A stretch of DNA of 64,000 nt, from positions 1-64,000 of the forward strand of contig JAQUKH010000009.1 of NCBI GenBank assembly GCA_028719205.1, in the 5' to 3' direction. The position numbers were made by a program, and so were the translations under genes. The DNA comes from a bacterium. GTDB taxonomy: Bacteria; JACRDZ01; JAQUKH01. Positions 38,241 through 60,377 of this stretch are shown here, piece after piece. The notes below the pieces were generated by a model. It was not told the DNA's origin, did no database searches, and saw nothing but the letters and a program-made list of their open reading frames with translations. Every line of letters starts with the position of its first letter. Within the stretch, counting starts at the first letter, position 1.

Positions 38241-38321
38241 GCAAAACGCGAAGGTTAAAAAAATAAAATTGCTTTTTCGAGTATTTTGGATGTAGAATTA
38301 AAATAAAAGGAGTTGATTGAA

Positions 38322-40943
38322 ATGGCTATTGATCCTGTATGCGGAATGGAGGTTGACGAGAAAACCGCCATTAAGGCTGAAAAAGACGGTAAGACTTATT
38401 ATTTTTGCAGTAATATTTGCAAGCGTAAATTCTTAGGCGAGGATCTTCCTTTTGAACATAAAAAAGTGCCTGAAGGGAAAAAATTGGAAAAAGCTATTAT
38501 AAGCATTTCGGGTATGACCTGCGCGTCCTGCGTTATGTCTATTGAGGTGGGGCTTAAGCGCATGAAAGGAGTGTATACTGCGAATGTTAATTTTGCTTCA
38601 GGTAAAGCTATGGTTGAATATGATCCGCAGGCAGTTAACTTGCAGAAGATTGAAAATACTATTGAAAAAATAGGGTATAAGGTTATAAAACCAAAAATAC
38701 CGGATACAGGAAATGTGCTTAGGCTTAAAATAATCGGGATGGATAATCCCCATTGCCTTAATACAGTTAAAGGGGCGATTGAAAGCCTGCCGGGGATCAT
38801 ATCAAAAGAATTGTTTATGAATGAACGCGGGATCATTACTTTTGATCCATCTAAAATAACTAAAGAGAAAATAAAAGAGGCAATAAAAAACTCAGGGTAC
38901 ACGCCTCTTGAAGAGGCTGAAACAACTGCTGACGCTGAAAAAGAGGCCAGAGAAAAAGAAATTAACACGCTTAAACTTAAAACTATATTTTCGTTTGTCC
39001 TGGGAATTCCGCTTCTGTATCTTGCGATGGGGCATCACGCTGGTTTGCCTGTGCCTGAGGTTATTCTTAATAACATGGCTCTTTTGCAATTTATTTTCGC
39101 GACTCCGATCATAATTATAGGGTACCAGTTTTATACGAGGGGAATAACATCTATTATTAAAACAAGAGTGGCTAATATGGATACGCTTGTTGCTATTGGC
39201 ACGGGTGCGGCATATATCTATAGCCTTTTTGTGTCTATTAATATCTGGCAAGGCAATACAAAGTTTGGCGGTATGGAAAATTTATATTTTGAAGTCGCGG
39301 GAATACTTATAGCGTTTATCCTTTTTGGTAAAATGCTTGAAGCAATCGCGAAGGGAAAAACTTCAGAGGCTATTAAAAAACTTATGGGGCTTCAGCCAAA
39401 AACCGCCTTAGTGGAACGGGAAGGTCATGAACAGGAAATCCCGATAGAAGATGTAATTTTGGGTGATATAGTTATTGTAAAACCGGGTCAAAAAATTCCT
39501 GTTGACGGGGAAGTTACAGAGGGGTATTCAAGCGTTGATGAATCAATGCTGACCGGTGAGAGTATTCCTGTTGAAAAATCCGTTGGGTCAAAGATTATCG
39601 GCGCGACGATAAATAAAACAGGCAGTTTTAAATTTAAGGCTACCAAGGTCGGTAAAGATACCGCTCTTGCCCAGATCATAAAACTTGTTGAAGAAGCGCA
39701 GGGGAGTAAAGCCCGTGTTCAGGAACTGGCGGATAAAATATCCGCTTATTTCGTGCCGGTAGTCGTAATTATTGCGATACTCGCTTTTATGGGCTGGATA
39801 CTGGCGGGAAAAGGATTTGTTTTCGCTTTATCGATCTTTATCTCAGTTTTAGTTATTGCCTGTCCATGCGCTTTAGGTCTTGCCACACCGACTGCCGTAA
39901 TGGTTGGCACGGGCCTTGGAGCGGAACATGGTATTTTGATTAAAAGCGCGGACGCGCTTCAGACAGCACATGAGATCAATACTGTGGTTTTTGACAAAAC
40001 AGGGACCCTTACAAAAGGAGAACCTGAACTAACGGATGTTATAACTCACGGAGAGTATAAAGAAAATGACATTTTAATGTTTGCCGCGCTGACCGAAAAA
40101 AAATCAGAACACCCGTTGGGAGAGGCAATTGTAAAAGGTGCCGGTAAGAGAAATATTAACATCCCGGAGGCTGAAAGTTTTGATTCGATAACGGGTAAAG
40201 GCGTGAAAGCCTTGTGGCAGGGAAAAACCATTTATCTTGGGAACCGCAAACTTATGGAAGATCTATCGATCGATGTATCTTCATTAGAAGCTGCTTTGCA
40301 GGATCTGGAAAAGCAGGGAAAGACTGCCGTACTTGTGGCAATAAACAACAAATTAGAAGGTTTGGTGGCGGTTGCTGATACGCTGAAAGAACATTCTCAG
40401 GAGGCGGTTGACGCGTTGAAAAAGATGGGTAAAAATGTAGTAATGATAACAGGTGATAATATCCGTACGGCAAAAGCCATTGCGGGACAGCTTGGAATAG
40501 AACGGGTATTAGCCGAAGTATTGCCTCAGGATAAATCAGAAGAAATAAAAAAACTTCAGGCTGAAGGATTAAAAGTCGCAATGGTTGGAGACGGCATAAA
40601 TGACGCTCCTGCTTTAAGTCAGGCTGATATCGGAATAGCAATAGGAACGGGAACGGACGTCGCGATCGAAGCCGGAGATATTGTTCTTATAAAAGATGAC
40701 CTCCGCGATGTGGCGATAGCGATAGGCCTTTCAAGCTACGCGATGAAAAAGATAAAACAAAACCTTTTCTGGGCCTTTTTTTATAACTCTATTGGGATCC
40801 CGGTTGCCGCGGGTATCCTTTATCCCTTTACCGGTTTCCTTCTCAACCCGATGATCGCGGGCGCCGCGATGGCTTTCAGTTCGGTATCCGTGGTCAGCAA
40901 TTCGCTATTAATGAAAAGGTATAAGCCGGAAATAAAAAAATAA
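38322..40943 (+). CDS. copA: Copper-exporting P1B-type ATPase with N-terminal YHS domain
   Basis: The 873-aa product starts with a YHS metal-binding domain ([18 protein letters not shown]), then an HMA domain with GMTCASC, then a second HMA-like domain that has lost the CxxC (GMDNPHC). The ATPase core has the CPC transport motif ([12 protein letters not shown]), the TGES loop, the phosphorylation site [10 protein letters not shown], the HP locus (SEHPLGEAI) and [10 protein letters not shown]. Copper(I) export is the usual role. The ATG at 38322 follows AAAAGGAG; a TTG three codons earlier is possible. It is followed after 41 bases by csoR, whose product should control it. Confidence 0.93.
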
Positions 40944-40948
40944 AGTTC

Positions 40949-40976
40949 TTGACATACCCTAGGGGGGTATGGTAAT
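40949..40976 (+). promoter_or_regulatory. csoR promoter with CsoR operator
   Basis: TTGACA at 40949-40954 is followed after 16 bases by GGTAAT. The spacer contains the near-perfect palindrome CATACCCTAGGGGGGTATG (40953-40971), a CsoR-type operator. Transcription would begin at about 40983, only about two bases before the csoR ATG, and no ribosome binding site is present, so the csoR message may be leaderless. Confidence 0.7.
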
Positions 40977-40984
40977 GTATAATT

Positions 40985-41263
40985 ATGGAAAAAGGCGCGT
41001 TACATTTAGATGAAATATCTAGATTAAAAAAAATTGAAGGGCAGGTTCGGGGTATTCAGAAAATGCTTGAGGAAAGAAGGTATTGCGTGGATATCCTGCT
41101 CCAGCTTTCCGCGGCCGGCGCGGCAATTAAAAAAGTCGAGAATAGTATTCTTAAAAGGCATTTAGAAACTTGTTTTTCAAATGCCTTTATTTCTGGAACT
41201 GAAAAAGAAAAGCATGATAAAATAAAAGAAGTTATTGATGTATTGGAAAAATTCAATAAATGA
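40985..41263 (+). CDS. csoR: CsoR-type copper-sensing repressor (DUF156)
   Basis: The 92-aa all-helical protein shows the family pattern: RLKKIEGQVRGIQKML, then YCVDILLQLSAAGAAIKKVENSIL, then HLETCF. The Cys in RRYCVD, the His and the Cys of HLETC are the copper ligands. The operator in its own promoter and in that of copA supports copper autoregulation. A nickel- or formaldehyde-sensing relative is less likely because copA is adjacent. Confidence 0.9.
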   Translation: MEKGALHLDEISRLKKIEGQVRGIQKMLEERRYCVDILLQLSAAGAAIKKVENSILKRHLETCFSNAFISGTEKEKHDKIKEVIDVLEKFNK

Positions 41264-41718: not shown

Positions 41719-41771
41719 TCTATTAGAATTGTTTTCCGTTAAATTAAGTTAAAAACATAAATGGAGTAATT

Positions 41772-43049
41772 ATGTTCAGGATTATTTTGTCCTCAAAGAG
41801 GATAACAAGGACTAGAAGCGGTAAGAACCTGGCTTTCAGCCAGAACCTTACGCTTAAGTCTTGTTTATCAGCCTTATTGATATTTGTATTTATCTTTGGG
41901 AATGCCGGTTTTGCATCGGATGATATTCTGGATGACATTGGTGAGGGCCTGAAAGATGCCAAAACCTTTGAAAAGGAAAAGGCGGAGCCCTATTTTAAAA
42001 GCCTTTTTAAGGCAATAGGCAGAAGCGATAACTATATCATTTATAAAGAACTTTATATTTCTGAACGGTATTCATCTGAACTTGGGCAAATGGAAGGCAG
42101 AAATTCGCTTGGATTTATTTTATTCGGAACATTTTCCGGGCCTGAAGGACAGCTTGGTGATATGAATGTGCAATTCAGGGCCGCTTATTACAACAACCAG
42201 TTTGCCTACGGTGAAAAGATGAAACGGGAATATACAGAAAACCTGAATGATTTTGAAACAGAACTGCATAATGCCTATTTAAGGTTGAGAGTTTCCCCCC
42301 CAATGTTTACACTGAGGCTGGGCCATTTTTATGTTCCTTTCGGGATCCAGCCGTGGATCGATACTCATGGAACGCTTTTGCAAAGCCCGGCAATGGAATT
42401 CAGCGGTGTTGAAAGGGATTGGGGTATCGGTATAGAAGGACAAAATGATTTCTTTGAATACCAAGCGGCGGTTACCCGCGGTTCAGGTATGGAATATTTT
42501 GAACGGGACGGGAATTATGTCTTAGCCGGTAAAGTTTCTACCCCGAGGATAGGCGAACATTTGAATGAGTGGTTAGGAATATCACTTTTAGTAGGAAGGA
42601 TATATGATCCGATGGCAGTTATGAAACTTCGCAGTTTCACAATGCAGGAAAAAGAAGATGATTTAATGAGTAACATTATTAAAAAGTGGAGGATCGGAAC
42701 TGACGGGCAAAAGCTGTATGGCCCGATGAGGCTGCGCGGTGAAGTTTCATTCGGCCGGGATGCGGGTAAAGAAGATATCCTGGCGGAATTCGCGGAAATT
42801 AAATACGCGCTGGGCAGAGATAACCGCTGGTCAGGTTATGCGCAGATCGAAAATCTGACGCAGGATTTTAACAACCCGGACCGGGGCAGTAATACCGCGC
42901 TTCGCGGGGGATTGACTTATAGCTTTTCCGCGAATTACAATTTACAGTTTGTAGTGTCAAAGGATCTGGCTACTATCTTTGGTGAAAAGGATACATGGGT
43001 AGGAGTTTTATTTTATGGGCAAAAGGGCGGAGGATTCAGGGAATGGTAA
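41772..43049 (+). CDS. Outer-membrane porin-like protein with a repeat-derived signal peptide n-region
   Basis: The 425-aa product has an N-terminal signal ending about residue 54 (FVFIFGNAGFA), a short charged segment, and then alternating hydrophobic strands rich in aromatic residues, as in porins (for example NAYLRLRVSPPMFTLRLGHFYVPFG, NNRWSGYAQIENLTQDF-type girdle patterns). No strict family is assigned. The start ATG follows GGAG. Codons about 6-32 fall inside a palindromic repeat that also occurs at 60288-60377, so the repeat supplies the positively charged part of the signal (KRITRTRSGK). It heads an envelope cluster that follows the copper genes. Confidence 0.7.
   Translation: MFRIILSSKRITRTRSGKNLAFSQNLTLKSCLSALLIFVFIFGNAGFASDDILDDIGEGLKDAKTFEKEKAEPYFKSLFKAIGRSDNYIIYKELYISERYSSELGQMEGRNSLGFILFGTFSGPEGQLGDMNVQFRAAYYNNQFAYGEKMKREYTENLNDFETELHNAYLRLRVSPPMFTLRLGHFYVPFGIQPWIDTHGTLLQSPAMEFSGVERDWGIGIEGQNDFFEYQAAVTRGSGMEYFERDGNYVLAGKVSTPRIGEHLNEWLGISLLVGRIYDPMAVMKLRSFTMQEKEDDLMSNIIKKWRIGTDGQKLYGPMRLRGEVSFGRDAGKEDILAEFAEIKYALGRDNRWSGYAQIENLTQDFNNPDRGSNTALRGGLTYSFSANYNLQFVVSKDLATIFGEKDTWVGVLFYGQKGGGFREW
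41787..41867. repeat. Palindromic repeat element inside the porin reading frame
   Basis: The left arm AACAAGGACTAGAAGCGGTAAG and right arm CTTACGCTTAAGTCTTGTT (given in parts) are inverted repeats around a GGCTTTCAGCC hairpin. The same element, with a different tip (CCCGATAAAATCGGG), lies in non-coding DNA at 60288-60377. In the porin it is read in frame. Confidence 0.75.
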
Positions 43050-43054
43050 GAAAC

Positions 43055-43112
43055 GCCCCCTCTGTCCCCCTCTTTAATTAAAGAGGGGGAAGGGGGAGTT
43101 AAATTAAAGGAG
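43055..43112. repeat. Palindromic CCCCCTCT / AGAGGGGG intergenic repeat
   Basis: CCCCCTCTTTAATTAAAGAGGGGG is a perfect hairpin (centre TTAATTAA), inside the wider inverted pair CCCCCT / AGGGGG. A related GC-armed element lies at 44787-44860. Confidence 0.6.
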
Positions 43113-60287: not shown

Positions 60288-60377
60288 TTGTCCCCTTCGA
60301 GGATAACAAGGACTAGAAGCGGAAAGAACCTGGCTTTCAGCCATCCCGATAAAATCGGGACGCTTAAGTCTTGTTTA
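60288..60377. repeat. Second copy of the palindromic element found in the porin gene
   Basis: It shares GAGGATAACAAGGACTAGAAGC, AAGAACCTGGCTTTCAGCCA and CGCTTAAGTCTTGTTTA (given in parts) with 41787-41867. The tip differs: here CCCGATAAAATCGGG. Non-coding, between the GIY-YIG gene and the glycine-zipper protein. Confidence 0.8.

Follow-up and report, generated by a model that had tools for sequence, protein, structure and literature searches.

A palindromic sequence of 78 nucleotides (nt) near the 5′ end of a porin-like gene was found to be one copy of a dispersed family, and it is probably a non-autonomous hairpin mobile element that inserted in frame in this gene and is tolerated as peptide. 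The gene lies in the window, that is, the stretch of 64,000 nt at positions 1 to 64,000 of contig JAQUKH010000009.1 (assembly GCA_028719205.1), which belongs to an uncultivated groundwater bacterium of Candidatus Desantisbacteria with a genome of 2.59 Mb (92.7% complete). A reading made from the letters of the window alone (the sequence-only reading) had proposed a mobile palindrome in this gene, and the comparisons below agree with it: the family is dispersed in this genome, it was not detected in the congener (G001), and the congener has the exact empty site. A second coding insertion was found in queA, in the same frame and with its own empty site, which supports the proposal that the palindrome may be tolerated as peptide.

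Sequence, copies and folding of the element

About 26 good copies and a few degenerate ones were revealed across the genome by BLAST and by a covariance model trained on 24 copies, with model E-values from 1e-19 to 6e-9. The unit, TCC...GTTTA, is 55-87 nt long (mostly 78, 77 or 66-67 nt), and its end sequences, TCCCCTNCGAGGATAAC and TTAASTCWWGTTTA, are not inverted repeats of each other. The second copy in the window, previously read as starting at 60288, was confirmed as non-coding with the bounds 60291-60377; it is located just upstream of a GIY-YIG gene on the opposite strand.

Each copy contains two hairpins, the stems of which show compensatory changes. Across the copies, hairpin 1 reads TCCCC-TNC-GAGGA or TCCTC-ANA-GAGGA, and the long stem of hairpin 2 is formed by AACAANGASTARAAGCGG and CCGCTTAASTCWWGTT around a variable inner arm, which is AAGAACCTGGCTTTCAGCCAGAACCTT or takes forms such as TCCCGATAAATCGGGA. 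Folded as DNA, the porin copy gave -18.8 kcal/mol (z = -6.1 vs shuffles). Over the 24 copies 95.2% of the stem cells were paired and six pairs were changed on both sides. There were 27 double-sided stem changes compared with 12 in shuffles, and the covariation score was reached by 0 of 500 shuffles, which do not keep the relatedness of the copies. Much of the covariation signal is one split in two subfamilies, GGACT/AGTCT-like and TGAGT/ACTCA-like, and paired changes in the inner arm were also found in single copies.

Right ends (TTAACTCAAGTTTA) with no left end nearby were observed at C2:105481, C3:83730, C4:42858, C6:4647, C8:57161, C13:55788 and C36:14089, which is commoner than chance would give; they are perhaps half elements or a related family.

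Strong and covarying hairpins, many of them near gene starts or ends, could also be the mark of a cis-acting RNA or a terminator-like structure, in which case the place in the porin mRNA would be functional. We consider this quite unlikely, as Rfam gave no match for the element, the copies are missing at the orthologous sites of the congener, and they occupy coding, intergenic, C-terminal and gene-breaking sites in both orientations relative to genes.

The porin-like gene and its signal peptide

The encoded N-terminus of the porin-like open reading frame (ORF) is MFRIIL-SSKRITRTRSGKNLAFSQNLTLKSCL-SALLIFVFIFGNAGFA-SDD, in which residues 7-32 (SSKRITRTRSGKNLAFSQNLTLKSCL) of 425 are encoded by the element, including the basic segment KRITRTRSGK at residues 9-18. 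The gene stays open because 78 is a multiple of three. The in-frame reading was thus borne out, and only the left bound had to be moved, from 41787 to 41790; 41787-41789 is the target. The start codon with GGAG just upstream was also placed rightly by the sequence-only reading (Table 1). The element would have landed behind Leu codon 6, ahead of the hydrophobic core, and the signal peptide made by the cell would be longer by 26 residues of net basic charge. The element had been taken as the supplier of the n-region; it does add basic residues, but it is not the only source, since a short n-region (MFRIIL) was already present and the congener has MFKTILSGFLMLIFIFG with no element. We propose that the insert may be tolerated because n-regions are permissive.

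Table 1. Features of the porin-like gene and the palindromic element in the window
Feature	Position	Strand	Evidence
Porin-like ORF, 425 aa, insertion behind codon 6	41772..43049	+	Orthologues in congener and JACQWU010000108
GGAG Shine-Dalgarno	41763..41766	+	Conserved in congener
Target trinucleotide, TTG here	41787..41789	+	5′ side of element; TTA in 16/25 copies
Palindromic mobile element (probable), 78 nt, TCC...GTTTA, codes residues 7-32	41790..41867	+	Exact empty site in congener; ~26-copy family
Hairpin 1, TCCTC-AAA-GAGGA	41790..41802	+	98% of cells paired over 24 copies
Hairpin 2, long stem AACAAGGACTAGAAGCGG with CGCTTAAGTCTTGTT, inner arm CTGGCT-TTC-AGCCAG	41804..41865	+	Fold; 24-copy alignment
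Hydrophobic core and AxA-like end of signal peptide (SALLIFVFIFGNAGFA)	41868..41915	+	Position kept in congener
Second window copy, 87 nt, non-coding, other inner arm (TCCCGATAAAATCGGGA)	60291..60377	+	BLAST and covariance model

Translation might instead begin downstream, for instance at TTG 41878, which the sequence-only reading had named as a possible true start, and the element would then be a mere 5′ leader. An n-region of 32 residues ahead of the hydrophobic core is long. However, the GGAG and the ATG at 41772 are conserved in the congener, where they form the natural start, and TTG 41878 is without a visible ribosome-binding site, and a start there would give an n-region with no basic residue; the insert length also keeps the frame, for which a leader has no need. 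We therefore regard a downstream start as improbable.

The protein showed about 77% identity with the congener orthologue and 63-67% with a third orthologue in JACQWU010000108. The window protein itself had no match in Pfam, NCBIfam or PDB, and a distant homologue (L067, 34% identity) matched PF07396 Porin_O_P with 21.2 bits against a cut-off of 20.9; the name porin-like, which depends on this homologue just over the cut-off, seems fair. AlphaFold on two sequences including the porin gave a predicted local distance difference test (pLDDT) value of 28.5. Compared with the congener, the nonsynonymous and synonymous (dN/dS) values were 0.14/1.43 for the porin-like gene and 0.14/1.22 for queA. The ratio near 0.1, with dS near saturation, speaks for the whole genes and gives no date for the insert; both genes, as wholes, appear to be under constraint.

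Just upstream of the porin-like gene, at 38313-41263, a heavy-metal P-type ATPase (HMA, YHS) is followed by a CsoR-type repressor, and the neighbourhood may be a metal-handling cluster. Directly 3′ of the gene, at 43056-43100, there is another palindrome, CCCCCTCTTTAATTAAAGAGGGGG, a possible terminator or other dispersed repeat.

Empty sites, target and mobility

The porin orthologue of the congener has the same Shine-Dalgarno sequence, ATG and signal core, and the element is missing; this is the comparison with an insert-free orthologue by which the sequence-only reading was to be checked. The orthologue in JACQWU010000108 is also without the element. For the empty-site test, TCC...GTTTA was removed and the joined flanks were compared with the congener, which gave spanning alignments at 15 loci. 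At the porin site the joined flanks read ATTTTG/TCAG in both genomes (the slash marks the junction), and TTTTG/TCAGG of the congener is the exact empty site. Other clear joined sites were found at L007 (ATTTA/TGGC), L018 (ATAATA/TACG), L022 (TTTTTA/TATC) and L020, and the queA site (L019) is TTTTA/AAAG when filled and TTCTA/AAAG when empty; L006 and L012 were less clean. When the junction was scored at different offsets, d = 0 was best at 7 loci (one tied) and other offsets scattered with no consistent recurrence, several of the 15 loci being too diverged to decide the offset. At the clear loci, the aligned flanks indicate precise insertion on the 3′ side of a TTA-like trinucleotide, in which no target sequence is duplicated or lost.

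Of 25 copies, 16 are preceded by TTA, compared with 3% in the surroundings (P ~1e-18), and 21 by TA. Among the copies with another left flank, eight of nine still have TTA at the right end (one of the eight is TTG-flanked). Because TTA is kept at the right end when the left differs, the right TTA is part of the element and not a duplicated target. Copies L017 and L005 lie directly behind the right end of a seemingly older copy (TTAACTAAAGTTTA/TCC and TTAACTCAAGTTTA/TCC, respectively), and here an end of the element itself seems to have been the target.

These data bear on two other histories of the copies. As they are short, non-autonomous, dispersed and palindromic, they might be a miniature inverted-repeat transposable element (MITE) moved by a classical DDE transposase, but the terminal inverted repeats and the target duplication of such elements were not seen here, and we regard this origin as very unlikely. 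Least credible is an ancestral element precisely lost from the congener: precise excision is known for IS605-like elements, yet every aligned site would then have had to lose its copy precisely and in parallel, leaving no remnant in the congener, and the element is missing from the third porin orthologue as well. The covariance model found 0 copies in the congener and the other relatives searched, and a sensitive profile search over 1.87 Mb of the congener also found none. The best explanation of this distribution would be that the family spread in this lineage after the split from the congener.

Copies in other genes and reading phase

In queA, 22 codons (SPSRITRTKNGSALVGPFKSCL) are located between EVFFL and KETGD, and the congener reads EVFFLKETGD. 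The QueA protein matches PF02547 end to end, on both sides of the insert; in a sequence alignment with the Bacillus subtilis enzyme of known structure (1yy3), the insert is placed between residues 88 and 90. In a further ORF (L026), which encodes a sulfatase domain (PF00884), another 22 codons (SPPRITMSKSDPDKSGPFNSSL) come after a putative signal peptide; no orthologous site was found for this copy, and the case rests on the open frame.

In the porin-like (TTG), queA (TTA) and sulfatase-like (TTA) genes the element is preceded by a Leu codon that is also the target, and all three ORFs read through it in frame, in one common phase (phase 0), and stay open. The phase-0 forward frame is open in 17 of 25 copies, compared with 1 and 0 for the two remaining forward frames. 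The target being a Leu codon, the element is entered in its sole stop-free forward frame. Entry in phase 1 gives a short C-terminal tail, IPYEDNKD* or IPYEDNNE* and variants, which was found at the ORF ends in L004, L006, L015 and L018, and the congener orthologues of L006 and L015 are without the tail. Entry in the third phase gives an early stop. The L009 copy interrupts a HEPN gene that has a nucleotidyltransferase gene as neighbour, and it lies about 190 bp behind a RAYT-like gene (L031, reverse strand, 2412-2879).

Selection for an open frame within the element was considered and rejected, as one frame in each direction is open in about 70% of the copies and stops occur freely in the others. 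For translational bypass or splicing of the insert there was no evidence, and every insert in an open gene has a length divisible by three.

Possible route of insertion and search for a mobiliser

Insertion of this short hairpin element would take place on the 3′ side of a TTA-like trinucleotide, which would in every case adjoin the same end of the element. The lack of inverted repeats and of target duplication, the hairpins at the ends and the short one-sided target suggest an IS605-type route, also known from palindrome-associated transposable elements (PATEs). This would be a single-strand HUH-transposase reaction in which the enzyme recognises hairpins and finds its target through base pairing. 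Two possible pairings would suit this: that of the TAA behind hairpin 1 with the TTA target, and that of AAC with GTT of the right end; folds showed one or other of the TAA/TTA and AAC/GTT pairings.

The genome has three Y1_Tnp genes, which are RAYT-like and adjoin other palindromes. They were rejected as the source of the element, as none of the three loci has the element's ends; one copy is nearby, the one within the HEPN gene. The neighbouring GIY-YIG gene was rejected as mover, with two GIY-YIG genes in the genome against about 26 copies. Viral contigs and plasmids revealed nothing convincing. One RAYT-like gene (L033:1168-1743) reads a palindrome, GTAGGGGC...GCCCCTAC, within its own open frame.

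Several points weigh against a mobile element that is tolerated as peptide. Translation of the element-derived residues is inferred from the frame. No transposase with matching ends was found at the three Y1_Tnp loci inspected in this 92.7% complete genome, and a TnpB search of the genome was empty; a Y2_Tnp search was empty too, but no control genome gave a match either, so that it is not informative. Reading of the congener genome by its letters extended over only about 70% of it, although the model search covered the whole.

Comparison with known systems

In-frame coding palindromes are already established in Rickettsia: the Rickettsia palindromic elements (RPEs) are hairpin repeats found between and inside protein genes, where they keep the frame and add extra peptide, and queA is among the RPE-bearing genes (PMC3767692, PMC10969869). 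Like the RPEs and the Wolbachia palindromic elements, the family described here consists of dispersed hairpin repeats located both in intergenic regions and in frame in unrelated genes, with queA hit in both. It differs in length (78/66 nt compared with about 100-150 bp) and in its unrelated host phylum, the comparison being one of description, and its empty sites show the TTA target and no duplication.

IS605-type elements and the PATEs of Haloquadratum have neither inverted repeats nor target duplication (PMC3119063), and features of IS605-type single-strand transposition are also described in PMC6006769. The present element resembles them in lacking terminal inverted repeats and duplication, in its palindromes near the ends, in a short target at one end and in being too short for a transposase (PMC3119063). 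Unlike them, it has no matching IS605-type element that we could find in the genome, and its hairpins reach its extreme ends and account for almost all of its length.

Repetitive extragenic palindromes (REPs) and REPINs with their RAYTs are likewise short dispersed hairpins, and this genome carries Y1_Tnp (RAYT-like) genes. However, canonical REPs are marked by a GT[AG]G tetranucleotide before the hairpin (PMC6006769), which was not found at the 5′ foot here, where TTA ends before hairpin 1, and the RAYT-like genes stand beside other palindromes. An earlier case of a mobile element located inside a signal peptide is known from Yersinia (PMC2759123). The enterobacterial repeat units (RU, or enterobacterial repetitive intergenic consensus, ERIC) that lie in genes differ from the present element in sequence, size and host, and there residues 1-30 are repeat-derived, whereas here the addition lies between start and core (PMC2759123). 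From these comparisons we would class the element as none of RPE, REP or PATE: it is RPE-like in genes and PATE-like in insertion. What is new is the family and its host lineage, together with exact empty sites that show the target, and the connection of the target codon with the reading phase.

Repeats in the porin orthologues and significance

The congener porin orthologue (L065, minus strand) has its own in-frame insert of 21 nt, TCACGAAGTGATCAGTTCCTG (SRSDQFL), that neither of the other two orthologues has; the core of this insert is a dispersed repeat with two hairpins, found at 7 places elsewhere in the stretches of the congener genome that were read. In the third orthologue (JACQWU010000108; L077:2908-2955) the N-terminus, MMDTKPQRHRGTEN, is written in a dispersed repeat, ACCACAGAGGCACAGAGG, which occurs at 6 places in a genome carrying the same porin gene (G003), with 0 for a reversed control pattern. 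As read from these alignments, three lineages have three different repeats in the 5′ coding part of the porin gene, with n = 3 and an uncertain start codon in the third.

We suggest, tentatively and with considerable doubt, that a TTA-targeting single-strand element is phase-locked to its readable frame via the Leu-codon target, so that invasion of coding sequence would be built in and the early coding region of secreted proteins would be a recurrent landing pad. If true, this would explain why a different dispersed repeat is found near the porin 5′ end in each of the three lineages.

Protein-coding palindromes have been described mainly from Rickettsiales, and their movement is left open in the cited literature. 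In the family described here, from an unrelated uncultivated phylum, exact pairs of filled and empty sites reveal the target, the ends and the reading phase, and entry into genes becomes testable now that donor and target are defined. In the porin-like gene, a mobile element would have lengthened the signal peptide of a protein whose gene appears to be still under constraint.
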